Of a stretch of 25,867 nt of DNA, positions 167-25,818 are shown one piece after another (within the stretch, counting starts at the first letter, position 1; every line of letters starts with the position of its first letter). The translations under genes and the position numbers were made by a program. Origin of the DNA: a virus; IMG/VR virus record IMGVR_UViG_3300002514_000213, positions 1 to 25,867 of that record. One strand, given 5' to 3'. Under the pieces are notes generated by a model, which did no database searches, was not told the DNA's origin, and was given only the letters and a program-made list of their open reading frames with translations.

Positions 167-958
167 TTATTTTACTCCTCTATAATCGTTTCTAATGTCG
201 TCGTCCTCTTCTTCGGGGTCAGCAAAACTTTTCTTTATATCTTCGTCACTATAGTTTTCTACCTCATCTTTGGTTAAGATGTATTGTTTTTTTCCAGATT
301 CTTCAAAACCTTCTTCTTTGTCATTAAAAAAATCACTTAGACTATTACTAAATGGTCCACTATCGTATTTTCTTCTTATTTGTTGTTGTTCTTCTGGTGT
401 TCTTGGTCTGTATTCTTCAAGTTTGTCCTCTAACTTGTCTATTTTACTCATCATACTGTCCATAGATGTTAGATGAGTCTCTAGTTGGGATAGTTTTGAC
501 ATTAAGTCTTCTAGGCTCTCGGTATTTTTAGAAAGTATATCTTGTTGGTCTGAAAGTTCTGCACTTACTTCATCTTGTTTACTTACCAAGTCTGTAACAT
601 CAAGTTCGGTGGTGTCTTCAGTACCCGTATCAATTTCGTCCGTAATATCGATATCATCTACAACACCCTCTTCTTCTCCACCTTCCACTTCTGTGTCTAC
701 TGCCGCCATATCTACATCTTCAGTTTCACCACCTTCCATCTCAGCTTCTGGGTCTAACGGAATATCTAAATCTACTTCTTCTTGTTCCCCCATTTCTTGA
801 CGTGCGTGAAACTTTTTGAGTGTGTCTGAATCTCCTTGTTTACCCATAAACCCTGAACCACCACCTATCATTTGTTGTTCAGTAAGGTTCTCAGAGTTAC
901 GACCAATTTCTTTAAATCGATTTAATTCCTTTAGTAATTCTTCTTTAATGTTATCCAT
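167..958 (-). CDS. Acidic coiled-coil protein, unknown function
   Basis: A 263-residue, very acidic protein that I do not recognise. Residues 1-20 form an amphipathic helix, followed by an LTE tripeptide (about 25-27), a Gly-rich turn and a long Asp/Glu-rich segment (about 58-120). A Ser/Leu/Glu/Lys coiled-coil region follows (about 125-185), then another acidic tail. The composition resembles scaffold or prohead-core proteins such as T4 gp22/gp67/gp68, and LTE fits the T4 prohead-protease consensus (L/I)xE, but both points are inference. Its ATG overlaps the end of the upstream 79-residue gene by 8 bp, so the two are probably co-translated. It lies directly downstream of the baseplate block. 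Confidence 0.8.
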   Translation of the reverse strand: MDNIKEELLKELNRFKEIGRNSENLTEQQMIGGGSGFMGKQGDSDTLKKFHARQEMGEQEEVDLDIPLDPEAEMEGGETEDVDMAAVDTEVEGGEEEGVVDDIDITDEIDTGTEDTTELDVTDLVSKQDEVSAELSDQQDILSKNTESLEDLMSKLSQLETHLTSMDSMMSKIDKLEDKLEEYRPRTPEEQQQIRRKYDSGPFSNSLSDFFNDKEEGFEESGKKQYILTKDEVENYSDEDIKKSFADPEEEDDDIRNDYRGVK

Positions 959-1190
959 TTAATAATTGTTTTACTTGTCCTGAAGGTGACTCAACCTGTA
1001 CTTTTCTATTTATTCTCACACTATTTTCAACTCTTTCTATTAAACCGTCTCTAGTGCGAACTGTGTAACAAATTCCTGTGTCTAAATCACACACTTGTTG
1101 TCCTTCGTCAGTTGTTCCGTTGTCAATTACATTGTCTGTTTTCTTACCTAAGAAATTACCTAATGTTTGTTTTAGTTGTTCTGTAATCAT
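951..1190 (-). CDS. Small protein with N-terminal ITE-helix motif, unknown function
   Basis: A 79-residue hypothetical protein. It begins MITEQLKQTLGNFLG, which resembles the N-terminus of the HAD protein encoded at 15647-16510 (LTEKQLKYVLGSL). The middle holds two cysteines six residues apart (CDLDTGIC), and the C-terminal half looks like a small beta-rich domain ending in a basic segment. No Shine-Dalgarno sequence is present; a TATTTATA box lies 21 bp upstream of the ATG. The gene overlaps the next minus-strand gene by 8 bp. The N-terminal motif could be a head-packaging signal, but the remainder gives no clue to function. Confidence 0.7.
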   Translation of the reverse strand: MITEQLKQTLGNFLGKKTDNVIDNGTTDEGQQVCDLDTGICYTVRTRDGLIERVENSVRINRKVQVESPSGQVKQLLNG

Positions 1191-1211
1191 AATAATTGTG
1201 TTTTTATATTA

Positions 1212-1219
1212 TATAAATA
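1212..1219 (-). promoter_or_regulatory. Candidate phage late promoter box TATTTATA
   Basis: Exact TATTTATA on the minus strand, 21 bp before the ATG at 1190, in the gap after the 2109-residue baseplate gene. Both flanking genes are on the minus strand, so the orientation is unambiguous. Confidence 0.45.
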
Positions 1220-1251
1220 TCAATTAAATCAATAATAGTCAATTTTTATCT

Positions 1252-4200
1252 TTATACCCTGAATATAGGAAGGAAATTTTCTGGTAATAAATACTGTTCT
1301 ACTATTCTACCGTTTCTTTTTACCCCTCTTATAATTTCAAAATGTAAATGTACATCTTTAGATAAACCACTATTTCCCATAATGCCAATTACTTTTCCAG
1401 CAACTGCTCCTGTTCCTGGTGAGGACCAATCTATATTGTAACCGGCTTCGTCATCTGTTATAAAAGGCGGGTTAATTATTGGTTCGTTTTCTCTAAGAAA
1501 AGCGTATCTAGTTTTGTAATACCCTGTTCCGTCATCATCTGGATTACTGTTTATAGTAGTATATATTTCTACATAGTTACCGTACTCACCACAACCATCA
1601 TCTTTTTGTAGGGGTTTACAATTTCTTTTCTGATTGATTATCTTCCCTTTTAATGCCGCATAAACTTTTATTCCGGTTGGTCCCGCAGCTTTGGATACCA
1701 TGCTTGCCTTTGGTGTGACGTCTATTCCTAAGTGTGTTACTTCTGGGTCAACACCTCCCATACTTACCTCAAGATAATCCCACACATCATGCCAAGTTAC
1801 ATTATCACTTTCTAATGTCTTCCAGTTACTACTCTTATCTATATAAAGATTATCAGCTTCTCCTCTAGATAACTGCATTGGTGTAGCACTTAAATTGTCA
1901 TAATATAAATCTATAGGTAATTCTTTTAGTCTTTTTTCTGCCGCTTGATAAAGATTTGAATTTACTCTTTGTACTAAATCGGTAATACTTGGTAGTTCTG
2001 CTAATGGTTGTCTAACTCCTTCAAATGTGGTTTCTATATTATTTGGGGATATATTATGTTCAACACTAACAATCATATACGGACCATTAAACATAGGTAG
2101 GTATCTTAGTTGGAAGTATTGGGTTGGTTGGATTGTTACGTTACCCATCATTGTTATTTTGGCTGAATAGGACCTACTCGCGTAAACATTAAATAATGAT
2201 AGAGAGGCCATAGATGTACTTCCACCACCACCAGAATCAGCCATTGATTGTAGTATTTTATAACTTTCTTCAGTATTTTGATATTCTGATTGGTCAAGGG
2301 TTACTGATTCAAAAATATTCTGATTTGGTATACCGAAATCAACATTGAACCCCATTACCTTGTTAGATAAATTTTTGTTTCCACACGCGGGTCCATTAAG
2401 TGGGTTTGGTGTAGCTCTACCTAAATTATATGAATCATTAGTATACCCATTGTCCTGTGTTTTAACATTAAGTTGTGTAGAACTATTTCCAATATATTGA
2501 CAGAGAAAAGCTGGTCTAGAGTCCAAGTAGTCCACGGTTTGGAATGTTCCAAATAAAGCGTTAGCCTGTTTTTGGGTATTCATTCCTTTTTTTTCTAGAT
2601 TAAAGAAATTAATATAGGATGGTAGGGGTATAAAATTAAAATAATTATTAGCTAGAATAATACTTAAAAAACTATCTACACTCTGGGTTAATGTTCTGGA
2701 ATTTTTATTAGCGAATGGGGAGTCTAATAGGATAATATCCCATATATCTATAACAGCTTCACTCCCAATATCTCGATTAGCTTTGTCTAAAAATAAAAAC
2801 TTCTCAAATAAAGTTTGATTATTTAGTGTTGGTATTCCCGCTATCCACCTATCATTAAGTTTTTTAAAACTGTTGTATAAGCTTAACTTTAGGTTATCTC
2901 CTTTTATCTCTGACCTATCATCGGTAGGGGGTGGAGTGCTTATGTTGATAATTTCTGAAGGATTTTCTTTAATATTTTTTTGTGCTGACTTAACCAAATC
3001 ATTTATGTACTGGTCAGATATGGTATCTAGATTACTAATCTGGGACATAAAAATTCCAATATAATCACGTGCAGTAACATATCCTTGTTCTGCACAGTAT
3101 GAACCGTATAACCTAATTAATGGTGCAAATCTTTTAATATTTACGCTATTAAAAGTAATTCCTTCTAAGGGGTAATTAATCTCCATAAAGAAACTATATA
3201 ATGGATTTGTGTCATCTGTTGGTACGAGTATATTAAATTGACTGGATGATTGTGAAAAATATTCTCCTACGTATATTCGCATGTCTTGATATTCTACTGG
3301 GTTACCTATGAAAAATCCACCTGCTGATGGAATGGTAGTGGTGCTAGAAGTATAAGTCCCGAATGTTTGTGTGATTTGGTATGAAACTGGTTTGCCTATC
3401 GGTGAAGAATAATTATAATGTAATTGTGTAATATCTTGTAGTAATGAAGAGTTGTTAACTACCGCGTTTAAATTTGTTGTGGTTTTGTGTGAATATTGTA
3501 TAGTGGTTTGTAAAAATTCATTAATAAGTACACTTATTTTTCGTGTTTGAGCGAATGCTAAGGCTGTGCTAAAATTACCCGAAGCTGCGGTTGCTGCATC
3601 AACCCACTTATCTTCAACAACACAAAAATCTTTTATAGCTTGCTTCATAGTCCAAGGTACGTCTCCACTACCTTCCGTGCTACTAAATATTTCAAATAAC
3701 TTCTCAAACCCGTCTAATTGTTCCGTATTAAACACACCACGCAGGTCCTCTATGTTAGAATAGGCTCCGTCTTCTTTAAACTGCCAATCGGTTTGTTCGT
3801 CTTTGTGGATGTCAATTAATTTAAAGTATTCTGCCGCTGTAGGTTTGTATACACCTCTATTAACAAAATATCCGTAATTGGACATTCCCCAGAATAATCT
3901 ACACGCTCCATTGTGTAAAGCTCTATTACTATATAAAGGAGCGTCATATGTATTAGCGTCAGTTTGGTCTAGTCCTCCGGAAGAAGGGAATAGAACATAA
4001 TATTGACCAGGACTCTCGGTGTTAGTGAATTTAACCTTTTCACTCTCATTTATAATATTATTTGAGTCTAGATATACATCGTAAAACTGTATAGTAGAAT
4101 TGTCCGTTGTAGCATTAAATGATATCTTTGTGTTATTACGTATTGTTAGTGGTGCGGCAGGAATAATAGTATTTAAGGTTAGGGTAGCGGGTATGTAGGC

Positions 4201-7200
4201 TGTAGAGTTAGTTGTTATATAGTGAATTGCACCTATTATATTTGGGTAAACTCCTACTTGCATAATATTATTAACTACTTGTTGGGATGTGTATTGGAAG
4301 GTTATACCTCCCTCAACGTACGTATATTGTGTAGCCAAACTACCCCCAACTTCATCATATACGTATGCTGGTCCTGTTGCCCCAAAAATTGTAGAGACAG
4401 TACCAACATCCCCCCAAATTTCACTTAAAGGGTCCGCTACTCCAGTTGCAGACCTTACACTATCTTTGTATCTCCACCATATCGACCCTATCTTTAATAA
4501 CAATGATAGTGGTACTTCATGTAAAGCTGGCATTTGATTAAAAAGTTGTGATATATAGTCCCCAAACCTTAATCCTGTTTCAGATGGTCCTGAGGTGTCA
4601 AACATAGCTTTCTCTCTAAATGTTGGTAGTGGCAATGAGTTTAGGAAAAGGTACGCGGCTTTCTTATATGGATGATTTACATTTAATTTCTCTTTATTGA
4701 CCCCATCTAGTAGTGCGTTAATAAAATAAGGTGTATTCATCATAGAGGTTAACCTAGTTTTAGCGTTATCTAATGTAAGTGGAGCAACATTAGGTGCTAT
4801 TCCCGATTGTGTGGGGTTAAATAAAATTTCCCCTTCTGTTACTAGTTTTGTATTATTAGGTGCTCCGCCTCCATCACCTAAAATTCTATCGTAAAATTCA
4901 TCAACAGCGTTTGGGTTATTTAACTCGTCACTATTAAAGTACCTATCCATACAAATATGAAAGTTTTCTAATGCTATCTCTGTATTATTAACCATTTTGG
5001 TTCCTAATGTAGTAAAATATAGTGTATCAACTGTTTCACTTAATATATTGTTACCCATAATGTTGTAGGTTAAATTGTTATAGATAGTAAAAAAATCATG
5101 AACCCCATTAGGTATATTAGCTCCATTTGCCATATTCACTTTCGCCCATCCTCCAAATATCATTGGAGCTACATCAAAAAACCCATTACCCTTGGTTATC
5201 TTAAGAGCTTTGTCATTAAGTTTCCATTGTTCGGACAAAATATCTACATTCATTTGTTGTGGAAAATCGAATGTTGGTCCTCCGACTAATCCACCTGTAA
5301 CTACTCCACCCCACAAGTACATCTGATATCTTTCTGGTGCTGCTTGTTTGAGTACCATATCTATATATTCCCTTGGGTTGTTCATATCTCTAAAAATCTG
5401 TGTGGTAGATGTAAATTTTTTAATTTGATTGTATAGATTTCTTCCTTCGTATGATGATAATTCCCCAATTATAGCTTCTCCCACTTCTATTGGGATTGAG
5501 GCATTACCAGGGATAGCGTGTCGTGTTAAAAGACTGCCGAAGAGTATAGCTGCTTGAGCTCTGTCTAATATTTCAAACCAAACATCTACATTGTCTAAGG
5601 AACTATAGGGTACATCAATAGGTGGATAATCTAAGATATTATTTATAGGGGTGAAATTTTTCTGTAACCCATCATTTGTGGTAGGAGCCATAAATGTTGA
5701 GAATTTATAATTGGTGCTCTTCGTGTACTCTTCTACAAACTCCACTTCAGGCCATACTTTTTTATTTGAGCTGTCTAATACATCCATTACTTCTTCGGAA
5801 CCAATATAAGTTAGAACTGAAGAGGTTTGACATTCTGAAACCTCTTTTGTTACATAATATTTAGGCCATGGAAACGCAATTTGGCTATTTTCTGAATTGG
5901 TTTGTGGTATATCGTTTGATACCTTAGCCACTTCTAATCTTTTTTTATTTTGTCGTTGAGCAAAAGCGTTGGTGTGCACATCATCTAGTAACCTTAAAAA
6001 GGTATCTGCCCCAGCAAGAATTACGGCAAAAACATTTCTTATTGTTGGTTTGAATCCTATTTCTGCTTCTAAAGCTAAATTTAATTCGTCACTCATATCT
6101 TCTTCCATCTGTTTTGCTTTACCGTCAAAGAGTTTCTTAGTTTTTTTCCATTGGAAGGTGAATGAGTCTACTCCACCATCAAAACAAAAATAAGGGCTGT
6201 ATTCTTGTGGTAACATTGCAATTGTGGACTCTATGGTTTGTACACCAGTAAGTTGGTTTTTCTTGAATTGATTTACATTAGCGTTGAAGAACTTGGTTGC
6301 TACTGCGTATTTACCGTCTTTTACGGTACTATCTACCCTAAATGTTGGGTTCTGTTGTAATAGTTTTACATATTTAGCTACAATACTATTAAGGTCTTGT
6401 TCAGCTTTCTTCTGTATTTTGTCTTTCTCTTCTTGTTGTTTGGTGGTGTCGGTTATATCATTGGCGGCTCTCATACCTTTTAAAGGAAAGCATTTGGTAC
6501 TTATCGTTGACCCGGTGGTCTCCTCACTAGTAGCTGGTAATTTGATTTGTACATTACGGACACCATTATTGTCTAAGTAGGTGTTCGTCCAACCTTCGGA
6601 CCCCATTATTGCTTGATAAAATTTATCCAGCGTTTTTAAATATTCTAATTTATCTGAAGTGTAGGATAGGTTAGCTTCACCAAAAACCCTACTTAAATCA
6701 TTATCTATAGCTTTTACTTTCTCAATTAATTGAACTATTGTGAGTGTTGGGAAATCGTCATCTATGAGTCCTTTAGCCGCATATAATTTATACACATCAT
6801 TTAAAACTTGCATTCCTTTGGTCCACGTAACATCTCCCGTACTTTCATTTATTGTAGTGGGATACATATATGGAGCGGTTATAGCTTGATGCATATTAAT
6901 ATCCCTTAACAACGCTATATGGTTACCTTTAAAATCACATGTAACTAGATAATCACCCGAAGAGGGGTCAAATCTAGAAACAAATTTATGTAACGTTAGT
7001 TGGTATTGTACCGCTTTACCGTAAAACCCTTTTAGAGTTAACATAAAGACTGGGTATGGCATATGAAAAAATGCAGTATACGGGGTATTAGTTCTTGCTT
7101 GTTCAAATAAGGTTTTACCCCTAATATCAGTAAAATTAATGGTTACTTCAGGTATAAAGGAGGCACTTATTTTTACAGCAATTGATGTTATTCCGAACCC

Positions 7201-7888: not shown

Positions 7889-7892
7889 ACTC

Positions 7893-8981: not shown

Positions 8982-8992
8982 ATTTCCTATTA

Positions 8993-15088: not shown

Positions 15089-15577
15089 TTAGTAAACTAA
15101 AATACAACGGTCTGGACGTAATGTAGCCGCTATATTTGCAAGACCGTCATCACTATAACCTAAGTCGTTAAAGTTAACGTCAGTTAAAAAACAACCTTGT
15201 AATATCCATTTTTCTACTACAACTCCTGTTGGGTCTAACATTTCTAAATCTATATTTTTTTTGTATCCAGCAGCGTAACCCATTCTACCTGTTACCGATT
15301 CTGAATGTAACCTAACCCATTCCATTAATGCTTGTGCGGCTGAAGGACCGATAGGGTCTCTAAATGTTACATTAATTGTGCCCCACGTAAATCTACCAGC
15401 AACATATGTCGATGTATTTAAAAACGGGACTTCAACTGGATTTATGGTTATTTGTGGTCTAGATGTACTCTCTACATACCACTCGTTAATACCTAAGGAC
15501 GAATCAAATCTTAGAATAAACCTATTCTTTTTCTTTGGTTCGTAGGGTATCGGCATTTTCATTAATAAATCGGCCAT
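15089..15577 (-). CDS. gp19: Tail tube protein (gp19-like)
   Basis: A 162-residue protein, almost the length of T4 gp19 (163). It shows the tube-protein layout: an N-terminal strand with KKNRFILRFD, the WYVESTSRPQI segment, the FTWGTINVTFRDP beta-hairpin, an ALMEWVRLHSES helix, and a C-terminal LDPTGVVVEKWILQGCF sheet with a DVNFNDLGYSDD turn. It polymerises as hexameric rings to form the inner tube through which DNA passes. It is flanked by its own candidate promoter (TATTTATA, 42 bp upstream) and its own strong terminator, consistent with separate high-level expression. The ATG has no Shine-Dalgarno, only an A-rich leader. This is one of the firmest identifications in the window. Confidence 0.93.
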   Translation of the reverse strand: MADLLMKMPIPYEPKKKNRFILRFDSSLGINEWYVESTSRPQITINPVEVPFLNTSTYVAGRFTWGTINVTFRDPIGPSAAQALMEWVRLHSESVTGRMGYAAGYKKNIDLEMLDPTGVVVEKWILQGCFLTDVNFNDLGYSDDGLANIAATLRPDRCILVY

Positions 15578-15646: not shown

Positions 15647-16510
15647 TTATTCTACCTTCTTTAATGTTATTTTTTTATTTCCTCCGTCTGAAGTGTTGTA
15701 CACCACAAAAGTAACGTCTGGAAATTCTGATTGTAGAACATTCTCTATAAAAGGTATAATTGCGTTTATATTACCTAAATCATCATCACTAAACCCTATA
15801 GACAATTTATTGTACTCTGTATTAACCATTTGTTTAGCTTGGTGAACTATTTTAGTTACGTAATCTCTTAAAGCTATTTTTTTATTTTCTTCCGGATTAA
15901 GTGCTGATTCTTCACTAGTTCCGAATTTTTCCATAAACTGTGGGGAGGTTACTGGGTGATAGTCTTGACTGTCTAGATAGATTCTTAGAGTGGTATCTGG
16001 GTCCTCACCTTCTAACTCGGGAATAGTTTGTTGGATATTATCAATCATTCTGTTTAATTCTTCTTCATTAAAAGTGTACGATATAACCAAATCCATCCCT
16101 TTTCTCAAAACCTCCGGGCTCTGTCCTCTAGCGGTAATAATAGAAATAGGGTTTGCGTATAGTAGAGCTTCTTTAAATTTCTCGAAAGACGGAGCGAAAG
16201 AATTATTTTGTAATGCCGTTTCTAAATCACTTAAGAAAGATTCATCCCCTATAAAATTATCAAACGCTCCCTCGTCTAATTCATAATCATCATTATCTCT
16301 CAATAAAGCAAAATCAGCGGTACTAACATTAACTTTTTCTACCCCAGAATCAGTCTTTCTTAACATTTTAATAGTTGTGGGCATATTAATAATATTGTCG
16401 TCCCAATCAAAAGAATATGCACGTATTACGGATGGGTCTGAAGAATTTTCGTTTAACGAACCTAGTACATACTTTAGTTGTTTTTCTGTCAAAATAATAT
16501 CTTTTTTCAT
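15647..16510 (-). CDS. HAD-superfamily phosphatase with N-terminal LTE-helix extension
   Basis: A 287-residue protein from the ATG at 16510; the in-frame TTG five codons upstream falls inside the promoter box and is unlikely. All four HAD motifs can be placed: motif I FDWDDN (Asp35, Asp37, with Asn39 where Thr/Val is usual), motif II SIITARG (Thr126), a candidate motif III Lys at about 211 (KKIALRDY), and motif IV GFSDDDLGN (Asp242-244). It should be a Mg-dependent phosphohydrolase; the substrate is unknown, with nucleic-acid 3'-phosphate or nucleotide as options. Residues 1-22 form a separate extension (IILTEKQLKYVLGSL) matching the LTE-helix motif of other proteins here, perhaps a capsid-targeting signal. 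It sits between sheath and tube genes, an odd place for an enzyme. Confidence 0.8.
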   Translation of the reverse strand: MKKDIILTEKQLKYVLGSLNENSSDPSVIRAYSFDWDDNIINMPTTIKMLRKTDSGVEKVNVSTADFALLRDNDDYELDEGAFDNFIGDESFLSDLETALQNNSFAPSFEKFKEALLYANPISIITARGQSPEVLRKGMDLVISYTFNEEELNRMIDNIQQTIPELEGEDPDTTLRIYLDSQDYHPVTSPQFMEKFGTSEESALNPEENKKIALRDYVTKIVHQAKQMVNTEYNKLSIGFSDDDLGNINAIIPFIENVLQSEFPDVTFVVYNTSDGGNKKITLKKVE

Positions 16511-16514
16511 ATAA

Positions 16515-16522
16515 TATAAATA
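16515..16522 (-). promoter_or_regulatory. Candidate promoter box TATTTATA / TATAAATA
   Basis: On the minus strand this is TATTTATA, only 4 bp before the HAD ATG at 16510. On the plus strand it is the T4-type late box TATAAATA, 44 bp before the secreted-protein gene. Orientation is therefore ambiguous here. Confidence 0.4.
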
Positions 16523-17013: not shown

Positions 17014-17074
17014 CCTTATTAATAATAATTCGTATATATTAATATAGAAGTTTAACCCTTAAAAAAATAAAATT

Positions 17075-17311: not shown

Positions 17312-17338
17312 AAAAAAGGTCCGAAAGGACCTTTTTTT
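17311..17338. terminator. Bidirectional intrinsic terminator
   Basis: A perfect 12-bp stem (seven A then GGTCC, paired with GGACC then seven T) capped by a GAAA tetraloop. It lies between convergent genes ending at 17311 (+) and 17349 (-) and has a T-run on both strands. Confidence 0.92.
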
Positions 17339-17348
17339 ATTGACATTA

Positions 17349-17996
17349 TTATATTTTTGGTATGGGATTAATCACTTGTTTCATCTTTTTAATATCTTCT
17401 TCGAGTAACTTTCCTTTATCTTCAATTTCTTCTTTAGTTAATGTATAGTCACCTTTACCTAACCTTTCTTCTATTTCATCCTCCACACTTACTGTTTCTA
17501 ATTCTGGGTAAGGAAGTGGTTCTCTTAAGGAGTCTGCAGATTTCATAGCTCTTTGGTCTCTACCTGAACCTATAGCGTCAGCTGTGATAGTCATAAAATT
17601 ACCTAATTTAGTCATTGAGTTAGCTAACCTTCGTCTGGTTTCACTATCTTTAATCATATCATAAGCTTTCTTTATCCCATTTAAAATATTTTCTATCCCC
17701 TCAGACGCTGAACTTCCAGGGTTACGACCTTGCCATTCAGATTGTTCGGATAATATATATTCATTTAGGTGTAAATGTAAGTTTTCTGTCAGAATAGCGT
17801 GTCGAATTAAATCATTAGCCTCTTTTATAATGCCGTCTAATTCCTTAATATTAGTATCTTCTTTAATTACATTTAACAACCTCTCTAGTTGGTCTTCACT
17901 AATTACAACATTTTGTTTTCTTCCTTTAGTAAAAAACTTAGGGTTGTCAGTAGACAAAAATAGATTTTCTGTTAATATTTTTTTAGTAAATTTCAT
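17349..17996 (-). CDS. Helical protein with repeated LTE/ISE sites, unknown function
   Basis: A 215-residue helical, charged protein that I do not recognise. Its first 85 residues hold four (L/I)xE tripeptides: KKILTENL (LTE 8-10), VVISEDQLERLL (ISE 32-34), HAILTENL (LTE 69-71) and ILSE (82-84). ILTENL occurs twice. These match the T4 prohead protease gp21 consensus (L/I)xE, and the ISEDQLERLLNVIKE helix matches similar segments in the HAD and 25156-25818 proteins. The rest has a helical pair (about 103-145) and an acidic C-terminal helix. It is transcribed with or after the sheath gene, with a TATTTATA box 18 bp before the ATG. A head-internal protein is a hypothesis; a tail-assembly role is equally possible by location. 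Confidence 0.75.
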   Translation of the reverse strand: MKFTKKILTENLFLSTDNPKFFTKGRKQNVVISEDQLERLLNVIKEDTNIKELDGIIKEANDLIRHAILTENLHLHLNEYILSEQSEWQGRNPGSSASEGIENILNGIKKAYDMIKDSETRRRLANSMTKLGNFMTITADAIGSGRDQRAMKSADSLREPLPYPELETVSVEDEIEERLGKGDYTLTKEEIEDKGKLLEEDIKKMKQVINPIPKI

Positions 17997-18014
17997 TTTA
18001 AACTATATTTTTAT

Positions 18015-18022
18015 TATAAATA
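18015..18022 (-). promoter_or_regulatory. Candidate phage late promoter box TATTTATA
   Basis: Exact TATTTATA on the minus strand, between the sheath stop codon and the next ATG at 17996 (18 bp). Both neighbours are on the minus strand. Confidence 0.5.
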
Positions 18023-21000
18023 CTAGACGTCTTCAAAAGAAGCTCCAGTTGGAGTAATCAGGAACTCAACAAATATATATTCTAATGCTCTAGTTGGTTT
18101 GATGTAAATCTTACCATTCATTTCATTTCTGTCAATTTCTGCTGGGTCACTCGAAAGTACAACTCTAAAGTCCGTTAATCCTCTGTCTCTTCTAATAGAA
18201 TCAAGTATTGGGTTAACTAAATCTAGGAATTGTTGTCTCACTATCTCGTCATTTTGTTCAAATATTAATCTTACAGCTACAGCTGAAATTAATTTTCTAG
18301 TTTGTAACAACAATCTTCTCACATTAATTCTATCTAAAGCCGATTCTTTTATCTGAAGAGTTTTATTTCCCCAAATTATAGGTCCAACATCACTAAATGT
18401 CGCGATAGGATTAATTCTACCCACATATAATGTGTCTCTCTCGTCTAATGTTAATTTCTTTCTTGCTTTTACCGCGTTTACAACACCTCTAGTATAACCC
18501 GCTGAAGCGAACCATGGGAATGCTATGTTATCAGTTAAAGCAATATTTCTCATTACGTCCGCTGTTGGTGGGATGTAAATTTGTTTATTATTTGCTGAAT
18601 CCCTAACTTGTACCCAAGGATAATATGTAGCTGTATAATTTGAGTCTATTAGTGAGTCTTCAACATTATCTACAGCACTATCCGGTGAAATCATATTAGT
18701 TGGGTCTGTTGTATTTGGTACAAACATATTGTAGTCTGGTGTTGTAACAACATATAAAGAATCCGCTCTATCAGTTTCTACCATATCTATTGCTTCATTA
18801 ACCAAACCTAAATTATCAACATAATCTAACCCTGGAGTTGTAAATACATTAATATCTACAGATTCAGGGTTACTGAAATTGTTGATACCTCTAAGGTATG
18901 CAAAATAATCTGTGTTAGCTTCACTAGTACTAATCTTTTTAAATGTACCAGCTCCGGTTGCTGTTGGGAATTCTGTACTGTTACACGCACCATTTAAGAA
19001 CCCTGTTAGTCCCATTCTATAGTCGTCAGTATTAGTTCTTGTTTTTCTGTATATATCCCAACCATCAAATCCACCATAAGGTGCTATAGTAAATTTACGA
19101 GACCTTAATGATTTATAAGCTTCACTACTAAGGGTAGGTTCGTGATTAAATTGAGCGACCCCACAGTCAAATATTTGTTGTCCGTTTAATGATGTTGCTG
19201 ACCAGTCAGTATATGAACCACTACCACCGACTACTACTGTTGCTCCCGAGTCCATGTGGAATCCTTTTGTGATTACGCTCCATTCACCACCTACTGTACC
19301 AGTACATATTGTTGGTGGGATAGCTCCTTTATATGCAAAGAAGTCTGTATCATAACCAGCTCCAATACTATCGGATACTCCTAAGTATACTTTGGATACT
19401 TTGTCACCACCACTTATAGTACGGTTATTTGCTGTACCACTACCAAATGGTGGGTCGAAAACCACATCACCAGGCTTATAGTACTTAGTCTTATATTCAA
19501 TACGAGGACTCAATGCACAATCAGCATATGGTCTGAATCTATACCCTTCGAATCCAGCTGGTAAGGAACCGGTAAACGTACCGTCTAATAATCCGTCAGC
19601 TAAGAACAACATAACAAATTTAGATTTTAATTCAAATTCACCAGTAGATGTACCTATTTTTCTACCAACAAAAGATACTAATTCTGGATTTAAACTACAT
19701 CTTGTATATTTTTCTAAAATAATTGGGTTTGCGTCTGTATCCCAGAAGTCTCTCACTAATATATCAAACTCACCTCTTTCAAAAGAAAGGTTTATTATTG
19801 AGACTTTAATCTCTCTGTTTGCTGAATTTCCGTCAGAAATTGATATGAATTTAAATAGTCTATAAACATCTGTACCTTGTAATTCAGAAACTATATATGG
19901 AGTTTCTGGTGTTGCCCATTCTCTCATGTACCACGCGATGGTATTTGTATTTACCGTTTCTCTCGCTCCTGGTAAGTGTGTAAGACAACACTGAAGTCCT
20001 CTAATTTTACCCTTTTTCCAAGCGTCAGTTAATAAGTTAGGGTATGTCTCTTCAACAAATAAAGGTACATCTTCTCTTTTCTTATCAAATGGGCTTCTAC
20101 CAAATACTCTAGATACATAGTCTTGAGCGGTGTTAGCCATAGATGTTTTGAATGTGTAGATAGTTCCATTATTAGTATTAGCACTAATACCAAATGACGC
20201 AAATGGGTTTTCCAATACTTTATAATAACTTCCTGTGCAGTCAAAAGCCACTGTATTTGCACTTATATCATATACTGGACCTCCACTTGCTTTACTACTT
20301 AATCCTCTAGACCTAAATGTTAAAACAACCATACCGTCATAGTCTGGGTCCGCTGTTACATTAGTCCACTCCATATAGTCAATTGCCGCTCTACCTGAAT
20401 AAATAAGAGTTCCTCCACTTGATGTTCCTGTACATGCACTAATAACAGTTACATTTGGATTATTATAAATTTGGAAACTAACTCCGCTATATGTGGTCCC
20501 TGTACAACATTCAGTATTAATAGCGTCAAATAGACCATAGTACCACGCGTCATTAAGATAATTATATTGTGGTGTTGAGTAGGCGTCCTCACAAGAAGTA
20601 CCTAATTCGTTATAGACTACTGTTGTACCTGTACCCGATACTGGGTAGGCCATTGTAGTTGCTGTCGCTTGTTGAGTCATTCCTTCTGTCACACAACCAA
20701 ATTGGAAGATTGAACCGTCGTACCAAGCTGTAGTTTGAGCTCCTGGATTTCCGGTCATCTCTGGATAACCTGTAGCTCCAGAATAAATTATACTCGCTTG
20801 GAACCAGTCCAATATCATTTGATTTAGGGTTGTTGTATTTCCATTGTTTAATGTTATTGTTTCGTAATTAAAATGATTACGAATTACTGCTGGTAAGCTA
20901 CTAAACCAGTCAATTGGATTAACTGTATTGTCATTAGTAAAAGCTGAAGTTCCTACGGTTCCACCAGCACCAGTCATTGGTATAAAGAATGGTAGTAATG

Positions 21001-21397
21001 TGGTTCCAGTAGTTACAGCTGATGTTGCTGACGAAAAACTTTTAGGGTCTAAAGCTCCAAAAGTCTTAACTGACCACGATGGTCCTGCGTCATAACCACT
21101 AAGACCTAATACTCGTGATACAAATAGTTGATTGGATTGGCTAAGGTATTCTTTAGCGATGTATCCTAATTCATACTTCGGAATTTGTGAATCAACATAG
21201 GTCACTGGTGATGTACCACCAAATCGTGTAACGTAATCATCCCATGATTGGATGTATATAGGTTCAAATGCTGGTCCTTTTAAGGTTTCACCAACTACAC
21301 CTAATGTAGTAACACCAACACTTTGTGCTACAAATGTTAAATCTTTCTCAGAAGTATATACCCCTGGAGAAACAAATACTCTATTACCTTCTGCCAT
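18023..21397 (-). CDS. gp18: Tail sheath protein (gp18-like), very large
   Basis: A 1124-residue contractile sheath protein; T4 gp18 has 659. The N-terminus is typical (FVSPGVYTSEKDL, VGVTTLGVVGETLKGPAFEP, then YVTRFGG). The core resumes at about residue 425 and carries TIAPYGGFDGWD, and the C-terminal domain has IRRDRGLTDFRVV, followed by the strand exchanged between subunits. Extra length comes mainly from a Thr/Ser/Gly/Cys-rich insertion at about residues 105-400, with a smaller one near 690-770. CTG[T/S] appears three times in the first insertion and once in the second. Such insertions usually project from the tail surface. A TATTTATA box lies 40 bp before the ATG; the leader is AT-rich with no Shine-Dalgarno. 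Confidence 0.93.
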   Translation of the reverse strand: MAEGNRVFVSPGVYTSEKDLTFVAQSVGVTTLGVVGETLKGPAFEPIYIQSWDDYVTRFGGTSPVTYVDSQIPKYELGYIAKEYLSQSNQLFVSRVLGLSGYDAGPSWSVKTFGALDPKSFSSATSAVTTGTTLLPFFIPMTGAGGTVGTSAFTNDNTVNPIDWFSSLPAVIRNHFNYETITLNNGNTTTLNQMILDWFQASIIYSGATGYPEMTGNPGAQTTAWYDGSIFQFGCVTEGMTQQATATTMAYPVSGTGTTVVYNELGTSCEDAYSTPQYNYLNDAWYYGLFDAINTECCTGTTYSGVSFQIYNNPNVTVISACTGTSSGGTLIYSGRAAIDYMEWTNVTADPDYDGMVVLTFRSRGLSSKASGGPVYDISANTVAFDCTGSYYKVLENPFASFGISANTNNGTIYTFKTSMANTAQDYVSRVFGRSPFDKKREDVPLFVEETYPNLLTDAWKKGKIRGLQCCLTHLPGARETVNTNTIAWYMREWATPETPYIVSELQGTDVYRLFKFISISDGNSANREIKVSIINLSFERGEFDILVRDFWDTDANPIILEKYTRCSLNPELVSFVGRKIGTSTGEFELKSKFVMLFLADGLLDGTFTGSLPAGFEGYRFRPYADCALSPRIEYKTKYYKPGDVVFDPPFGSGTANNRTISGGDKVSKVYLGVSDSIGAGYDTDFFAYKGAIPPTICTGTVGGEWSVITKGFHMDSGATVVVGGSGSYTDWSATSLNGQQIFDCGVAQFNHEPTLSSEAYKSLRSRKFTIAPYGGFDGWDIYRKTRTNTDDYRMGLTGFLNGACNSTEFPTATGAGTFKKISTSEANTDYFAYLRGINNFSNPESVDINVFTTPGLDYVDNLGLVNEAIDMVETDRADSLYVVTTPDYNMFVPNTTDPTNMISPDSAVDNVEDSLIDSNYTATYYPWVQVRDSANNKQIYIPPTADVMRNIALTDNIAFPWFASAGYTRGVVNAVKARKKLTLDERDTLYVGRINPIATFSDVGPIIWGNKTLQIKESALDRINVRRLLLQTRKLISAVAVRLIFEQNDEIVRQQFLDLVNPILDSIRRDRGLTDFRVVLSSDPAEIDRNEMNGKIYIKPTRALEYIFVEFLITPTGASFEDV

Positions 21398-21437
21398 ATT
21401 ATATTATTTTTAATTAATTATTATTCTTTTATTCTAC

Positions 21438-21445
21438 TATAAATA
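21438..21445 (-). promoter_or_regulatory. Candidate late promoter box before sheath gene
   Basis: Minus-strand TATTTATA 40 bp before the sheath ATG. On the plus strand it reads TATAAATA, 112 bp before the ribbon-helix-helix gene, so it could serve either direction. Confidence 0.45.
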
Positions 21446-21502
21446 TAACGGGTAAAACCAAAAGTTTTCACAATAAAAGGGTTATTTGGGTGTTAGTAGG
21501 TA

Positions 21503-21524
21503 TTTTTTCATACTTTTTTCATAC
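21503..21524 (+). repeat. Perfect 11-bp tandem repeat, candidate operator
   Basis: TTTTTTCATAC occurs twice with no spacer, ending 33 bp before the ATG of the small ribbon-helix-helix gene. An 11-bp period places both copies on the same DNA face, the geometry used by paired ribbon-helix-helix dimers (as in Arc). Autoregulation is inferred. Confidence 0.5.
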
Positions 21525-21557
21525 TATATTCTACTTATATTAATAATACCCTTGTAA

Positions 21558-21725
21558 ATGCCTTTAGAAGATAAAAAACCCAAAATCAAAAATTTAAAAA
21601 TAAGTTCGGAAGTCCATAGTTTATTAAAAATATATTGTACTAAACATGGTCTGAAGATGTTTGCGTTCGTCGAACAGTTAATTTTAGATAAATGTTCTAA
21701 GAAAAAAGATATATACGGGGAGTAA
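21558..21725 (+). CDS. Ribbon-helix-helix DNA-binding protein, 55 residues
   Basis: A 55-residue basic protein, MPLEDKKPKIKNLKISSEVH onward. Its layout fits ribbon-helix-helix repressors: a basic N-terminal arm, a short strand (KNLKIS), helix A (SEVHSLLKIYCTKHG), a Gly-Leu turn, helix B (KMFAFVEQLILDKC) and a charged tail. Such proteins bind DNA as dimers through the paired N-terminal strands and often control their own gene. It lies between sheath and gp15-like genes on the opposite strand and ends 3 bp before the convergent gp15-like stop. TACCCTTG ends 3 bp before the ATG, one mismatch from the Bacteroidota -7 box TAnnTTTG, again suggesting a leaderless start. Its targets are unknown; late tail genes or host genes are possible. 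Confidence 0.75.
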   Translation: MPLEDKKPKIKNLKISSEVHSLLKIYCTKHGLKMFAFVEQLILDKCSKKKDIYGE

Positions 21726-21728
21726 TTA

Positions 21729-22805
21729 TTAAACCAAAGTCTCTTCTATGGTTACTGACGAGTCTTCTGTTGGTATGTTCTTAGCTATCTCAATCACCAT
21801 AGTGTCTCCCGGACTAACCTCAATGTTTGTGGTTATCTGTATGCCGTTAACAAAAAACTTTTCTGAATTTAGTACGACATTATTTGTTCTTATTAAGTTA
21901 ATATTTGCTTTATATTTGTAACTTATAGTAAATGTATTAACTAGTCCTACAAAACTTACTTTAGTTTTTACCTTATCACTATTCTTTTTTCCTAGAGTTT
22001 TAGGGTCACCCTTTCTATCTTTTTCATCAAAACCAAACATAACCAAACTTCTAGTTATAGCTGGTTTAACTTCAAACTCTTCTTCGTCTAATAAAAACCC
22101 TTGTAGTTGAAACTGATAATTTTGTTGGTAGTATCTTCTGTCTTCTGTATCAATTTGGCTTTCGTCACCTATTGATTGCATAACAATAGGGATGTAGTGT
22201 CCTTTCACAAACGTGTATGCTTGTTTTGATGTGAATTTTTGTAACACCACTCTATTAAAGTTGTTCAACTCTCTCATCCTATTACAAATTATTTTTACGT
22301 CATATATAATGTCTACTGGAACTGGTTGCGGTATGGTGTATATGTCGTAGCCTTTTCGGTTACCGTCCCAGGTTGGTACTTTTGCGTAATGGAATTGTTT
22401 TCTATCAGGAATGGTATATTGTAAAGCGGGGTTACTGCCGTACTGTACATCAGGTTGTCTAACAACCACAATAAATGGTAGTTCAACATTTTTATCTTGG
22501 TTTGCAAATTTCCATGTTTGTGAAAATTCTCCCCACCTTTGCAATGTGAGGATTCTATCTATAACATTAACCTTCTTTCCAGACGTTACTGTTTTTAGTT
22601 GTTCTTCTACAAAATCTAACATACCTCTATCTAAATCAGCGTGTAAAATAGATTTAGGTAAATAGGTGCCGTCGTCAGTGATTAAATCCGTTAACTCCTT
22701 TCTTCTATTAGGTGTAGTAATTCCATTATACCCACTAGGATAATGTCCCTGCACTGGACCTGGAGCTATATTTAAAGTTTTTTTTATTTTTTTAGGTATT
22801 GCCAT
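21729..22805 (-). CDS. gp15-like tail completion / sheath stabiliser
   Basis: A 358-residue protein. Its centre matches the plan of T4 gp15: a proline-led strand (PVPVDIIYDVKIIC), a helix with NNFNRVVLQKF, GHYIPIVM, then an Asp/Arg-Arg segment (EDRRYYQQNYQF) leading into QLQGFLLDEEEF, comparable with the IP..., RRR...F...NGW run of gp15. T4 gp15 (272 residues) forms the ring capping the tail after sheath assembly and joins it to the neck. This version has a longer N-terminus and a beta-rich C-terminal extension. It directly precedes the sheath gene on the minus strand, as expected near gp15-gp18. The start codon overlaps the upstream stop (TAATG), and an AAAGGA 5 bp before it may be a Shine-Dalgarno. 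Confidence 0.65.
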   Translation of the reverse strand: MAIPKKIKKTLNIAPGPVQGHYPSGYNGITTPNRRKELTDLITDDGTYLPKSILHADLDRGMLDFVEEQLKTVTSGKKVNVIDRILTLQRWGEFSQTWKFANQDKNVELPFIVVVRQPDVQYGSNPALQYTIPDRKQFHYAKVPTWDGNRKGYDIYTIPQPVPVDIIYDVKIICNRMRELNNFNRVVLQKFTSKQAYTFVKGHYIPIVMQSIGDESQIDTEDRRYYQQNYQFQLQGFLLDEEEFEVKPAITRSLVMFGFDEKDRKGDPKTLGKKNSDKVKTKVSFVGLVNTFTISYKYKANINLIRTNNVVLNSEKFFVNGIQITTNIEVSPGDTMVIEIAKNIPTEDSSVTIEETLV

Positions 22806-23320
22806 TATATTCCTTTAAATTCATTTTCACTAACCCATGAACATACTATGGTTCTGTAGAAAGCTTTATACCCACCTATAGTGTGTTGTATGTCCGAAGT
22901 TACCCTACCATCATTTGCAACCACATAATATCTCATAGTTGTTTCATTTTCTGGGTAACCAATATAATCCCCATAATTTATATCAATATTTAATTCTTCT
23001 AAATGTTTATTGTACACACCTAGGGTCATATTTCCTGGTTCCATCTGATTCACCAACCCACTTCCATAACTTTTGTTACTTGGTGTGTCTATTTTTACGT
23101 AAGCATTAAACTCCACTGGTGGTTTGTATCTTATTTCTTCTGGTCCGGATTCACCATATACATCATCTACATCTGATAATTTTTTATCTACTCTAAATAA
23201 AACCATGGTAAAATGCATATCACCATGTAACCATTCCATCCCGACGTCCTGTTCTAACTGGAAATCTTCAGAACTAAAAAATCTAGATATTCTTGTAATA
23301 GGTATTTTTTTATTTGCCAT
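22805..23320 (-). CDS. Neck/head-completion-like structural protein
   Basis: A 171-residue protein without catalytic motifs. The N-terminus (PITRISRFFSSEDFQLEQDVGMEWL) is mixed; the C-terminal two thirds is beta-rich, with HLEELNIDINYGDYIGYPE, RYYVVANDGRV and GGYKAFYRTIVCSWV. It is translationally coupled to the gp15-like gene through a one-base TAATG overlap, and in T4 the genes before gp15 are the neck proteins gp13 and gp14. The YGDYIGY segment followed by a short beta domain is compatible with a shortened gp14 (256 residues in T4), but the match is not strong. AAGGGA 7 bp before the ATG is a plausible Shine-Dalgarno, and a TATTTATA box lies 17 bp upstream. Confidence 0.7.
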   Translation of the reverse strand: MANKKIPITRISRFFSSEDFQLEQDVGMEWLHGDMHFTMVLFRVDKKLSDVDDVYGESGPEEIRYKPPVEFNAYVKIDTPSNKSYGSGLVNQMEPGNMTLGVYNKHLEELNIDINYGDYIGYPENETTMRYYVVANDGRVTSDIQHTIGGYKAFYRTIVCSWVSENEFKGI

Positions 23321-23337
23321 ATAAGTTTCCCTTTTAT

Positions 23338-23345
23338 TATAAATA
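23338..23345 (-). promoter_or_regulatory. Candidate promoter box between divergent genes
   Basis: Minus-strand TATTTATA 17 bp before the neck-like gene ATG. On the plus strand it is TATAAATA, 38 bp before the helicase ATG. It could drive either gene. Confidence 0.4.
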
Positions 23346-23383
23346 CAATTTGTCTTTCTTTTCTCTTTTTATTATACTTTACT

Positions 23384-25117
23384 ATGGAAAATTTTCCTCC
23401 AGAGATTAAAGCTAAAAATTCATTAGCTAAATATGATGGGGCCAATAACTACATTATCGGCCTAAAAAATAATATGCTTAATAGTAAAACTTTCACACTC
23501 ACACGTTCTCAGTCAGATTATATTAATAAAAATTATAATGAAAAACCTAAGGTTGTTAGATTGTGGATGGAGATTGACGATTATCTATCTAAAGAGTTGA
23601 TGTCCACCCAATTTCTACAAACACCACCTAAATCTATATGGATAGAAAAACTTTTATCGGAAACTGATAAAGCGTACCATGTGTGGGGTAAAATAATTGA
23701 AAGCCAGAAACTTCATTCATTTTGGGTCCCTAAAAATCAAATTGTCCCAAGAGAATCACCCGACCTTGATGTGGATTTTAAGGTGTTTTCACATCGTCCT
23801 CCTTTTGAACACCAAAAACAAGCTATCGTAAAATTAGTATCCAATAAAAAATATATATTGGCAGATGATATGGGGTTAGGTAAGACTAGTTCCGCGATTA
23901 TGGCAGCTATTAATCTTAACCTAAAAAAGGTGTTAATTATATGTCCAGCTTCTTTAAAGGTTAATTGGAAAAGAGAAATAGAAAATTACACCAAAGATAG
24001 TGTTGGTATTGTGGAGGGTAAGAAGTGGGAAGATGGTAAGTATGTTATCATAAATTATGATATTTTGAAAAACTTTCATTCCTTACCAAGGGATTCGGAT
24101 AAAAAAACAACCATCTTAGACTATAACTTTGATTTGGTTATCATAGACGAGGCTCACTATGTTTCCAATGGTAAAGCTCAACGAACTAAATTGGTTAACA
24201 ATCTTACAACTAAAATAGATAGATTATGGTTATTGTCTGGTACACCAATGACTTCTAGACCGATGAACTATTATAATTTATTGAAATTGGTGGGTTCTAG
24301 AGTTGCTAATAATTGGATTAGTTATGTTAGACGTTACTGTGATGGTAAACAAATTTTTAGAGGGTATCGTAAGATTTGGTTGACTTTTGGTGCGACTAAT
24401 CTGGAGGAGTTAAGAGATAAAACTAATGATAGGGTTCTACGTAGACTAAAGGATGAGGTTTTAGATTTACCTGATAAGATTATAACTCCCATCCATATGG
24501 AGTTAAAGTCTAAATTATATGAAAGTGAGATGGGTGAATATCTAGACTGGAGAAGACAAAATAGAAATAGGGGGTTATCTATCCAACTATCAAAACTAAT
24601 GAAAGTGAGACAAATTATTGCGTTAGAGAAAGTTAAGGAGACCTCACAACTTATTGAGCAATGTTTGCAACAAGATAAAAAAGTTATTGTATTCACAAAT
24701 TTTACTGAACCTTTAATGACTTTACATGAGAAATATAAAAAAGAATCCGTAATTCTTAATGGTACTATGAAAAAAGAGGACCGTCAAAAAAGTGTGGATA
24801 ACTTTCAAAATGATGATAAGGTAAAAGTTTTTATTGGTAATATAAAAGCCGCGGGTGTGGGAATTACATTAACCGCAGCTGAGGTGGTTATATTTAATGA
24901 CTTATCATTCGTACCTTCGGACATGTCACAATGTGAAGATAGAGCATTTAGAATAGGCCAAGACAAAAAAGTATCCTGTATGTACCCTATTTATGATAAT
25001 ACAATAGAAAGAACAATTTACGAATTGGTTAATAAAAAGAAGTCTGTTATAGATACGGTTATGGGTGATAATATAAATGAAGAGGATATTTTAGGTGAAA
25101 TACTTAATGGTTTGTAG
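23384..25117 (+). CDS. SNF2-family DNA helicase/translocase (SMARCAL1-like)
   Basis: A 577-residue superfamily 2 ATPase with a full set of motifs. Walker A is DDMGLGKT (161-168), motif Ia ICPASLKVNW, the DEAH box IIDEAHYV (253-260) and motif III LLSGTPM (283-289). The second RecA domain has VIVFTNF, motif V AAGVGITLTAA and motif VI QCEDRAFRIGQ (516-526, with Arg520 and Arg523). MGLGKT, SGTPM and RAFRIGQ are hallmarks of SNF2 proteins, and the compact form resembles SMARCAL1/ZRANB3 annealing helicases. Residues 1-135 are a separate N-terminal domain. T4 uses UvsW for branch migration and origin processing; this protein may fill that role. It starts divergently from the neck-like gene. No Shine-Dalgarno is seen. 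Confidence 0.92.
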   Translation: MENFPPEIKAKNSLAKYDGANNYIIGLKNNMLNSKTFTLTRSQSDYINKNYNEKPKVVRLWMEIDDYLSKELMSTQFLQTPPKSIWIEKLLSETDKAYHVWGKIIESQKLHSFWVPKNQIVPRESPDLDVDFKVFSHRPPFEHQKQAIVKLVSNKKYILADDMGLGKTSSAIMAAINLNLKKVLIICPASLKVNWKREIENYTKDSVGIVEGKKWEDGKYVIINYDILKNFHSLPRDSDKKTTILDYNFDLVIIDEAHYVSNGKAQRTKLVNNLTTKIDRLWLLSGTPMTSRPMNYYNLLKLVGSRVANNWISYVRRYCDGKQIFRGYRKIWLTFGATNLEELRDKTNDRVLRRLKDEVLDLPDKIITPIHMELKSKLYESEMGEYLDWRRQNRNRGLSIQLSKLMKVRQIIALEKVKETSQLIEQCLQQDKKVIVFTNFTEPLMTLHEKYKKESVILNGTMKKEDRQKSVDNFQNDDKVKVFIGNIKAAGVGITLTAAEVVIFNDLSFVPSDMSQCEDRAFRIGQDKKVSCMYPIYDNTIERTIYELVNKKKSVIDTVMGDNINEEDILGEILNGL

Positions 25118-25134
25118 AAACATACTTTTACGTA

Positions 25135-25142
25135 TATTTATA
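25135..25142 (+). promoter_or_regulatory. Candidate phage promoter box TATTTATA (plus strand)
   Basis: Exact TATTTATA on the plus strand, 13 bp before the ATG at 25156. This is the only plus-strand copy found before a gene, and it has the same orientation relative to its gene as the minus-strand copies. Confidence 0.5.
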
Positions 25143-25155
25143 ATAAACAATTGTG

Positions 25156-25818
25156 ATGAATAAAAAAGAATTTACCAAAAAACAGCTTAAGGAGCAGTTA
25201 ACTACATTAACTGAAGAAAAGAGTGCTCGTTCAGAAAGTGCCTTGAAGAAAGATTTAAAAAACTCATTTGACGCGTTAAAGAAATTGGACCAGGTGACAA
25301 CAGGTCAAAAAATAGGTGATGTTACGATAACAAAAGCTATGAATAAAAAAATTAAGAACGCTAAAAGATATATAGAAGATTTATATGATAATATAACTGA
25401 TGGTGAAATAGAAGAAAAAGAACATACAGAGGAAAACGAAGTAACTGAAAAAAATGAAAAATCTGAGGGTTATGGAAAAATGTATAACGCGTTAAAAGGG
25501 GTTAGAGAAGGTAAGGTTATTAAGGTTAATGAAGGTACTTTAAAAAGAATTGTAGAACGAGTTATTAAAGAACAAAAAAATGTTGGTTCTGGTTGGGCCG
25601 CTGGAAGTAGACCAACTGCGGCACAAGAAGCGTTGATGGGAGCCAATAGTTTTGATGATATGCTTAGTAAACTTTCGGAAGCTGTTACCAGAATTAAAAA
25701 GGTTTCTGCCACTGCGTGGAAAAAATCCGAACCTGCACTTACCGATAAAGAACTTGCAGACGCTAAAAATAAAGCCGTTACAGAATTAAAGTCAATACTT
25801 GATTCATATACTAAATAA
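25156..25818 (+). CDS. Charged helical protein with LTE and NE-helix motifs, unknown
   Basis: A 220-residue protein from the ATG at 25156; a GTG one codon earlier is possible but less likely. It is almost wholly helical and Lys/Glu-rich. Residues 1-20 (KKQLKEQLTTLTEE) contain LTE at 18-20. A second segment, VNEGTLKRIVERVIKEQ (124-140), matches the ISEDQLERLL and LTEKQLKYVL helices of two other proteins here. Between them is an acidic Glu/Asn/Lys linker (about 83-105). The C-terminal 80 residues include an Ala-rich helical region. I do not recognise the family. It follows the helicase by 38 bp, has its own promoter box and ends 25 bp before a terminator. A scaffold, prohead-core or packaged internal protein is a guess from the motifs. 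Confidence 0.75.
   Translation: MNKKEFTKKQLKEQLTTLTEEKSARSESALKKDLKNSFDALKKLDQVTTGQKIGDVTITKAMNKKIKNAKRYIEDLYDNITDGEIEEKEHTEENEVTEKNEKSEGYGKMYNALKGVREGKVIKVNEGTLKRIVERVIKEQKNVGSGWAAGSRPTAAQEALMGANSFDDMLSKLSEAVTRIKKVSATAWKKSEPALTDKELADAKNKAVTELKSILDSYTK

Follow-up and report, generated by a model that had tools for sequence, protein, structure and literature searches.

The window analysed here is the whole stretch of 25,867 nucleotides of IMG/VR virus record IMGVR_UViG_3300002514_000213. It contains tail sheath and tail tube genes, listed for context, and its tagged genes are located in this tail region. The features are as follows, with an arrow marking a cleavage site (a predicted one, except in T4 proteins):

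167–958, minus strand: ORF of a 263-residue acidic protein
878–958, minus strand: pro-segment at the N terminus of the 263-residue protein, MDNIKEELLKELNRFKEIGRNSENLTE↓Q, a different tag class
951–1190, minus strand: 79-residue protein, outside the tag family (ITE not conserved)
15089–15577, minus strand: tail tube (phrog_4542, E 9.3e-32)
15647–16510, minus strand: HAD-like ORF, 287 residues
15647–16447, minus strand: HAD-like body, predicted cargo (RAYSFDWDDN..., SDDD motif)
16448–16510, minus strand: N-terminal tag of the HAD-like protein, MKKDIILTEKQLKYVLGSLNE, predicted cut after E21 (LNE↓N)
16516–16522, minus strand: promoter-like TATTTAT, 12 nt 5′ of the HAD-like gene
17349–17996, minus strand: 215-residue tagged protein, between the sheath and tube genes
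17859–17912, minus strand: tag in the 215-residue protein (residues 29–46), NVVISEDQLERLLNVIKE, predicted cut after E46
18016–18022, minus strand: promoter-like TATTTAT, 26 nt 5′ of the 215-residue protein gene
18023–21397, minus strand: tail sheath (phrog_23, E 1.3e-55), T4-type tail module
25135–25141, plus strand: promoter-like TATTTAT, 21 nt 5′ of the 220-residue protein gene
25156–25818, plus strand: ORF of the 220-residue tagged protein
25156–25215, plus strand: N-terminal segment of the 220-residue protein, MNKKEFTKKQLKEQLTTLTE↓, predicted site after E20
25510–25572, plus strand: internal tag of the 220-residue protein (residues 119–139), GKVIKVNEGTLKRIVERVIKE↓Q, junction before the C-terminal body

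An earlier note on this DNA had described a short helix motif common to four otherwise unlike proteins. The strings it quoted are present as placed: LTEKQLKYVL at residues 7–16 of the HAD-like protein, ISEDQLERLL at 32–41 of the 215-residue protein, VNEGTLKRIV at 124–133 of the 220-residue protein, ITEQLKQTLG at 2–11 of the 79-residue protein, and LTE at 25–27 of the 263-residue protein. The motif is real, but it had been drawn too short and runs on to a conserved [LI]xE. In the HAD-like, 215- and 220-residue proteins the tag approximates to K-h-[IL]-[TSN]-E-x-[QED]-[LY]-x-x-h-h-x-x-h-[IL]-x-E. A 20-residue profile with 15 seeds, the three window proteins among them, was run on 2,242 ORFs with a cut-off of at least 10 bits. 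It gave 110 matches compared with 0 in the reversed proteins, and this separation was maintained by iterated models. These three score beyond chance (21.2, 17.2, and 18.3 bits, respectively), but the fourth proposed carrier, the 79-residue protein, scored as no match. Its homologues begin with MITE, MISE, MITD, or MINQ or lack the segment, and no site follows; we regard its resemblance as a coincidence.

In the HAD-like protein, the [LI]xE at the end of the tag is present in 98 % of 62 aligned homologues. Of 48 distinct tags, 47 retain it; the inner LTE survives in only 22 of 46. The conserved predicted cut site of the main tag is thus the terminal [LI]xE and not the LTE or ISE within it. In the body, DWDDN and SDDD are invariant in 33 aligned homologues. 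The structure model is confident from about residue 30; the tag region is of low confidence, with a low-confidence helix (9–19) and a very low-confidence linker (18–24) preceding the folded core. Searches of the body against Pfam and PHROG gave zero matches. The label "HAD" rests on sequence motifs, because a profile search of the PDB found no relative and Foldseek with the model returned nothing significant.

The tag of the 215-residue protein is conserved throughout its homologues, and further LxE sites lie both upstream and downstream of E46. Neither this protein nor a tagged 169-residue relative gave any tblastn match to isolate phages. In the 220-residue protein, the N-terminal segment has [LI]xE in 11 of 11 aligned sequences, and the internal tag has it in 91 % of homologues. 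Among these homologues, the C-terminal body that follows the internal tag is either swapped for an unrelated one or absent. The early LTE of the 263-residue protein, to which the earlier note had also drawn attention, does not belong to the main tag, but all 7 aligned homologues have LxE↓Q at this position. Judged from this alignment, the N terminus forms a conserved pro-segment belonging to a different class.

The tag extends far beyond the window. Its commonest version, MKKVIRLTESDLxRIVKRVIxE, stands at the start of no fewer than 79 proteins in IMG/VR, whose bodies fall into 67 unrelated families, and the pattern MKKVI[RS]LTE-S-DL was found in at least 120 IMG/VR stretches compared with 0 for the codon-permuted control. 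Residues 13–22 were left unconstrained in the pattern search; even so, 74 of the 79 proteins have an [LI]xE whose E is residue 22, and conservation ceases beyond it. An [LI]xE anywhere within residues 17–27 occurs in 76 of 79, as against 16 by shuffling (maximum 27). Three jumbo genomes hold 12, 17, and 13 tagged proteins (0 when reversed), and 39 of these 42 matches begin at or before residue 8. Tags are around 15–25 residues long, a minority are internal or C-terminal, and some short variants (MKFLITESKL...) have no tag-end site. Genome-wide, [LI]xE-Q peaks at residues 21–30, whereas [LI]xD-Q, [VF]xE-Q, and [KR]xE-Q show no such peak.

Other tag classes (TESQY, EEKNRILxLHE, EEINRIKxIMG) also end in [LI]xE. 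In the TESQY class, [LIVM]xE is found at residues 15–16 in 19 of 24 families; a single DNA pattern for the TESQYKRL variant returned zero stretches, and a looser pattern returned 110. Bodies that are homologous to one another may carry tags of different classes, each with a final [LI]xE, and the tag-end site is retained where linker length varies. Over all classes we counted 104 tagged body families, and among the Pfam, PHROG, and NCBIfam families shown, none is common to more than two of them. The tag itself has no relative in the PDB (best E 0.26). A tblastn search of 50,697 phage records with tag consensus sequences of 23–24 residues returned nothing; since a local test showed that the query was unmasked, isolates lack near-consensus tags. 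The one tag match in GTDB is a single 3.2-kb metagenome-assembled contig. Among the papers searched, no relevant one contains the strings LTESDL, LTESEL, ITESQL, or ITESQY; the ten texts that matched are on unrelated subjects.

The earlier note had read the motif as a capsid-targeting tag and had proposed a search for a gp21-like protease. As the window is a fragment, this search refers to its relatives, which encode both a T4-type S77 prohead protease and gp23. S77 was present in 34 of 34 records with an intact gp23 (two pattern-scan sets). In the capsid protein of the relatives, LI[NY]E precedes the body and P1′ is mostly A; by alignment with T4, this [LI]xE↓A falls at the mapped site of T4 gp23 (FLTE↓A). 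The gene beside gp23 codes for an acidic protein of 429–511 residues, taken to be the scaffold. The co-occurrence of S77 and gp23 with the tag is not independent evidence, because both are traits of the lineage as a whole; S77 occurs without a clear tag in the cultured relatives RM378 and immuto. Large tagged records without S77 were considered as a break in the link to the protease, but TerL and the T4 portal are also missing from them, as is gp23 except for one broken piece, and they are probably fragments. With around 100 unrelated bodies and tags that end in the protease consensus, the sequences strongly support a capsid-targeting tag common to unrelated proteins of a T4-type phage that encodes a gp21-like protease.

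The closest parallel is the capsid-targeting sequence (CTS) of T4, whose internal proteins are diverse with only the CTS conserved (PMC3012670). As in IPI, IPII, IPIII, and Alt, a short N-terminal segment precedes unrelated, mostly small proteins and ends in (L/I)xE, in genomes with an S77 protease and alongside a T4-type core, portal, and gp23. The T4 CTS (MKT[YF]xEF...) spans 6–20 residues in the IPs and Alt and is carried by three IPs and Alt, whereas the tag described here is a longer (around 15–25 residues) strand-plus-helix element of several classes, the main class alone occurs on 67 body families, and it is also found internally and at C termini. Compared with T4 ipI, ipII, and ipIII, the tag has in common only the MK start and the (L/I)xE, and it falls outside the IP propeptide sequence family. 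T4 Alt, the start of which we read as MELITE, is cut at ITE-6 (PMC5694885), and MELITE↓ resembles the MKIIITE and MKYLITE starts seen here (PMC9026906, PMC5694885). An inner ITE may serve as the cut site in a short, Alt-like sub-class. Inner-head proteins of phiKZ and SPN3US likewise have N-terminal propeptides that are cut by the prohead protease after xxE, with an inferred targeting role (PMC5694885); those propeptides mostly exceed 100 residues and are cut at AxE or SxE, unlike the short tags ending in [LI]xE here.

The phages concerned resemble the Far-T4 phages, including the bS21 freshwater Bacteroidetes phages, in having T4-type gp23, portal, S77, and tail genes and in being aquatic and mostly uncultured (PMC4360716, PMC7198788, PMC9723584, PMC13037479). 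The portions of these papers on genomes, hosts, and expression do not describe an N-terminal tag. The cultured Far-T4 member RM378 differs from the phages here in having no clear tag.

The tag might alternatively be a docking helix that stays uncleaved and attaches proteins to the tail, the baseplate, or the outer capsid surface of the virion, [LI]xE being merely the end of an amphipathic helix. The tagged genes of the window between sheath and tube fit this, as does the match of several tagged bodies to cell-wall hydrolases (M23, lysozyme, LysM, PG_binding), which are commonly tail-borne. We nevertheless think it unlikely: the terminal site is placed with much greater precision than in shuffled sequences, is kept despite the variable linker, and is common to tag classes of unlike sequence and to the capsid protein. 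A role inside the infected cell, as a ribbon-helix-helix-like DNA-binding arm, a membrane-binding amphipathic helix, or a degron, seems a shade less probable again. The helix is indeed basic and amphipathic, and MKKVIRLTESDLxRIVKRVI superficially resembles the start of a ribbon-helix-helix protein, but that fold is absent from the Pfam matches of the 104 tagged proteins and from the PHROG and NCBIfam families shown, the bodies are unrelated, and the conserved E at the exact end of the tag would be left unexplained. That the pattern arose by chance, [ST]E helix N-caps being frequent in AT-rich phages, is very improbable; the 79-residue protein is such a case, but the controls (110 against 0 reversed, at least 120 against 0 permuted) and the 67 unrelated bodies contradict it for the tag as a whole.

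The tag probably loads proteins into the head, because it ends where the head protease should cut. We consider it likely that the motif is the core of an N-terminal capsid-targeting propeptide, CTS-like in action and with sequences of its own, in uncultured Far-T4-like phages. The propeptide, usually the first 15–25 residues, would consist of a short basic β-prone stretch, a helix N-cap ([TSN]E), an amphipathic helix, and [LI]xE. We infer from the sequences that during head assembly the tag would dock the protein on the prohead core and that the T4-type S77 protease would cleave after [LI]xE, releasing the body within the head; the body would then be packaged along with the DNA and ejected into the host.

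On balance, it seems somewhat probable that a large group of uncultured aquatic phages loads its heads with at least a dozen different proteins by means of several interchangeable N-terminal tag classes converging on one protease site, and that the tag is a general signature of injected proteins. Most of these would have no known function, and some would probably act against host defence. Recognition of injected phage proteins is hampered by the variety of their bodies and by sparse annotation. With the tag as a marker, predicted head-packaged proteins could be picked out from the hypothetical proteins of a common aquatic phage group and put to the test; it would also be a short signal that might be tried for cargo loading into the heads of these phages.

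The nearest sequences to the tail tube are from Mel-JY01, an unannotated metagenomic phage record, RM378, and immuto. The window itself is without gp23; that of one relative is nearest to a metagenomic record, immuto, and Mel-JY01. The T4-like late promoter TATAAAT was considered and is unenriched (2 of 65 tagged versus 128 of 1,560 other genes). TATTTAT is enriched upstream of the tagged genes, and this promoter-like element also occurs on tail genes.

The 25.9-kb IMG/VR fragment carries a T4-type myovirus tail module, with genes for sheath, tube, a T4_baseplate protein and an SNF2-type helicase. Every string quoted in the earlier note, which had proposed a tag common to four proteins, was found at the residues given. 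The proteins concerned are encoded in the window as follows:

167-958, minus strand, 263-residue protein
951-1190, minus strand, 79-residue protein
15647-16510, minus strand, HAD-like protein
17349-17996, minus strand, 215-residue protein
25156-25818, plus strand, 220-residue protein

A 20-residue profile of the tag (approximately K-h-[IL]-[TSN]-E-x-[QED]-[LY]-...-[IL]-x-E) was built on 15 clear examples. Run beyond the window proteins, over 2,242 ORFs from the window and its relatives, it gave 110 matches at or above the threshold of 10 bits, against 0 in the reversed proteins. The HAD-like (21.2 bits), 220-residue (18.3 bits) and 215-residue (17.2 bits) proteins, all three also seeds of the profile, bear the tag. 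The 79-residue protein was rejected as a carrier: it does not match the profile, in its homologues the position is taken by ITE, ISE, ITD or INQ, or the segment is missing, and in none of them is it followed by a site, so the likeness is a chance one. The early LTE of the 263-residue protein, also pointed out previously, is a real conserved feature, since 7/7 aligned sequences have LxE¦Q at the end of this N-terminal stretch (L-x-[ED]-[LI]-x-R-F...); it belongs to a different N-terminal class and not to this tag.

In the relatives the tag occurs in about 30 groups of proteins whose bodies are unlike one another. The core of the HAD-like protein is conserved in its homologues at 80 IMG/VR loci, and the majority of these also have the N-terminal pattern, which persists while its sequence drifts. 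A DNA pattern for MKKVI[RS]LTE-S-DL, the start of the main class, found matches in at least 120 stretches of IMG/VR, and a control with its codons permuted found none. Among the matches listed, at least 79 unique main-class proteins fall into at least 67 body families by BLAST. Three jumbo records of 242, 322 and 282 kb encode 12, 17 and 13 tagged proteins, respectively (0 when reversed), with the tag in the first 8 residues in 39/42. Most bodies of 104 family representatives have no known identity; matches include M23 peptidase, LysM, PG_binding, cell-wall hydrolase, phage lysozyme, endonucleases, P-loop kinase-like domains and DHH. In the AlphaFold model of the HAD-like protein, helix 9-19 is of low confidence and the linker 18-24 has a pLDDT below 50; the core from approximately residue 30 is better folded.

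Residues 1-12 of the 79 main-class proteins are set by the search pattern, so only positions from 13 onward are informative. Among the matches listed, E occupies residue 22 in 76/79 and I or L residue 20 in 75/79, [LI]xE ends at residue 22 in 74/79, and conservation ends at residues 22-23. The same listed proteins have [LI]xE inside residues 17-27 in 76/79, compared with a mean of 16 and a maximum of 27 when residues 13-27 were shuffled. The cut had been placed earlier at the inner LTE or ISE. In the HAD family, this inner position fits [LI]xE in 22/46 only, whereas the tag end does so in 47/48 distinct tags, which makes the tag end, not the LTE, the conserved candidate cut site. Eight records with 1,697 proteins in all show an enrichment of [LI]xE-Q at residues 21-30 and none there of [LI]xD-Q, [VF]xE-Q or [KR]xE-Q.

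Three further N-terminal classes were found, with ends like that of the main class:

MKIIITESQYxxLLxE, 24 body families
EEKNRILxLHExATKxxYLxE, 10 body families
EEINRIKxIMGLxE, 5 body families

Homologous bodies carry different classes (main and EEKNRIL, 40% identity over 136 aa; main and EEINRIK, 72% over 95 aa), and one HAD body bears the TESQY tag. In the family of the 220-residue protein, residues 1 to ~140 are conserved with an internal tag at the end; beyond it, members either have C-terminal parts with no relation to one another or go no further. Both the swapping and this family fit a tag that acts as a modular signal.

There are no head genes in the window, and the question of a gp21-like protease was therefore addressed in the relatives, where 67 large records were searched for the T4-type prohead protease family S77 (PF03420) and the major capsid protein gp23 (PF07068). 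S77 was found in 34/34 records with intact gp23 in the two sets defined by the tag pattern, and in 5/7 records with gp23 in the first set, defined by the HAD body; the two exceptions have gp23 at the end of the contig. The S77-less records examined further also lacked TerL and portal. The relatives' capsid proteins have LI[NY]E, mostly followed by A, ahead of the conserved body, at the place where T4 gp23 has FLTE¦A. The co-occurrence of S77 and gp23 shows the machinery to be present; as both are markers of the lineage as a whole and also occur in the cultured relatives RM378 and immuto, which have no clear tag, it bears on presence and not on action on the tag.

T4 internal proteins are diverse and have only a capsid-targeting sequence in common, which gp21 removes after (L/I)xE (PMC3012670, PMC9026906). 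T4 Alt loses six residues by a cut at ITE-6 (PMC5694885). Alt starts MELITE¦LFDE, and the short starts MKYLITE and MKIIITE of these phages are close to it. In every available sequence test the tag appears to work like a capsid-targeting sequence, although its sequence is not that of the T4 internal proteins. The tag is probably a propeptide at the N-terminus that targets proteins to the capsid and represents a new sequence type. It would dock the protein in head assembly and be cleaved, and the protein would be packaged and then ejected. No relevant paper turned up among those searched for the tag strings. These phages appear to resemble Far-T4 phages, and the predicted hosts are Bacteroidetes (PMC4360716, PMC7198788, PMC9723584, PMC13037479).

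Small proteins starting with MK[FY]LITESK or MKIIITENK are encoded in two records, G022 (31.6-34.2 kb) and G026 (IMGVR_UViG_3300042562_001598; 10.7-11.5 and 165-166 kb). Their ITE is conserved, they have no tag-end site, and they start like the MELITE propeptide of T4 Alt. G026 also has a tandem array of four paralogues (160894-163323) that start MKIIITENQYELLK. Nineteen small ORFs of 55-95 aa cluster at 135-137, 148-150 and 156-159 kb of the same record, many with an MKTK..LGKSV start and SSV-type repeats; this is a further common N-terminus, and it lacks an LxE site.

The element TATTTAT lies within 70 nt upstream of 39/65 tagged genes, compared with 388/1,560 others (odds ratio 4.5, P 6e-9), and of 50/75 main-class genes, often 21-26 nt ahead of the start. 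The window copies include:

16516-16522, TATTTAT ahead of the HAD-like gene
18016-18022, TATTTAT ahead of the 215-residue gene
25135-25141, TATTTAT ahead of the 220-residue gene

It also precedes the sheath, tube and 79-residue genes. TATTTAT is a possible promoter of these phages, and its distribution suggests that the tagged genes may be expressed together with the tail genes.
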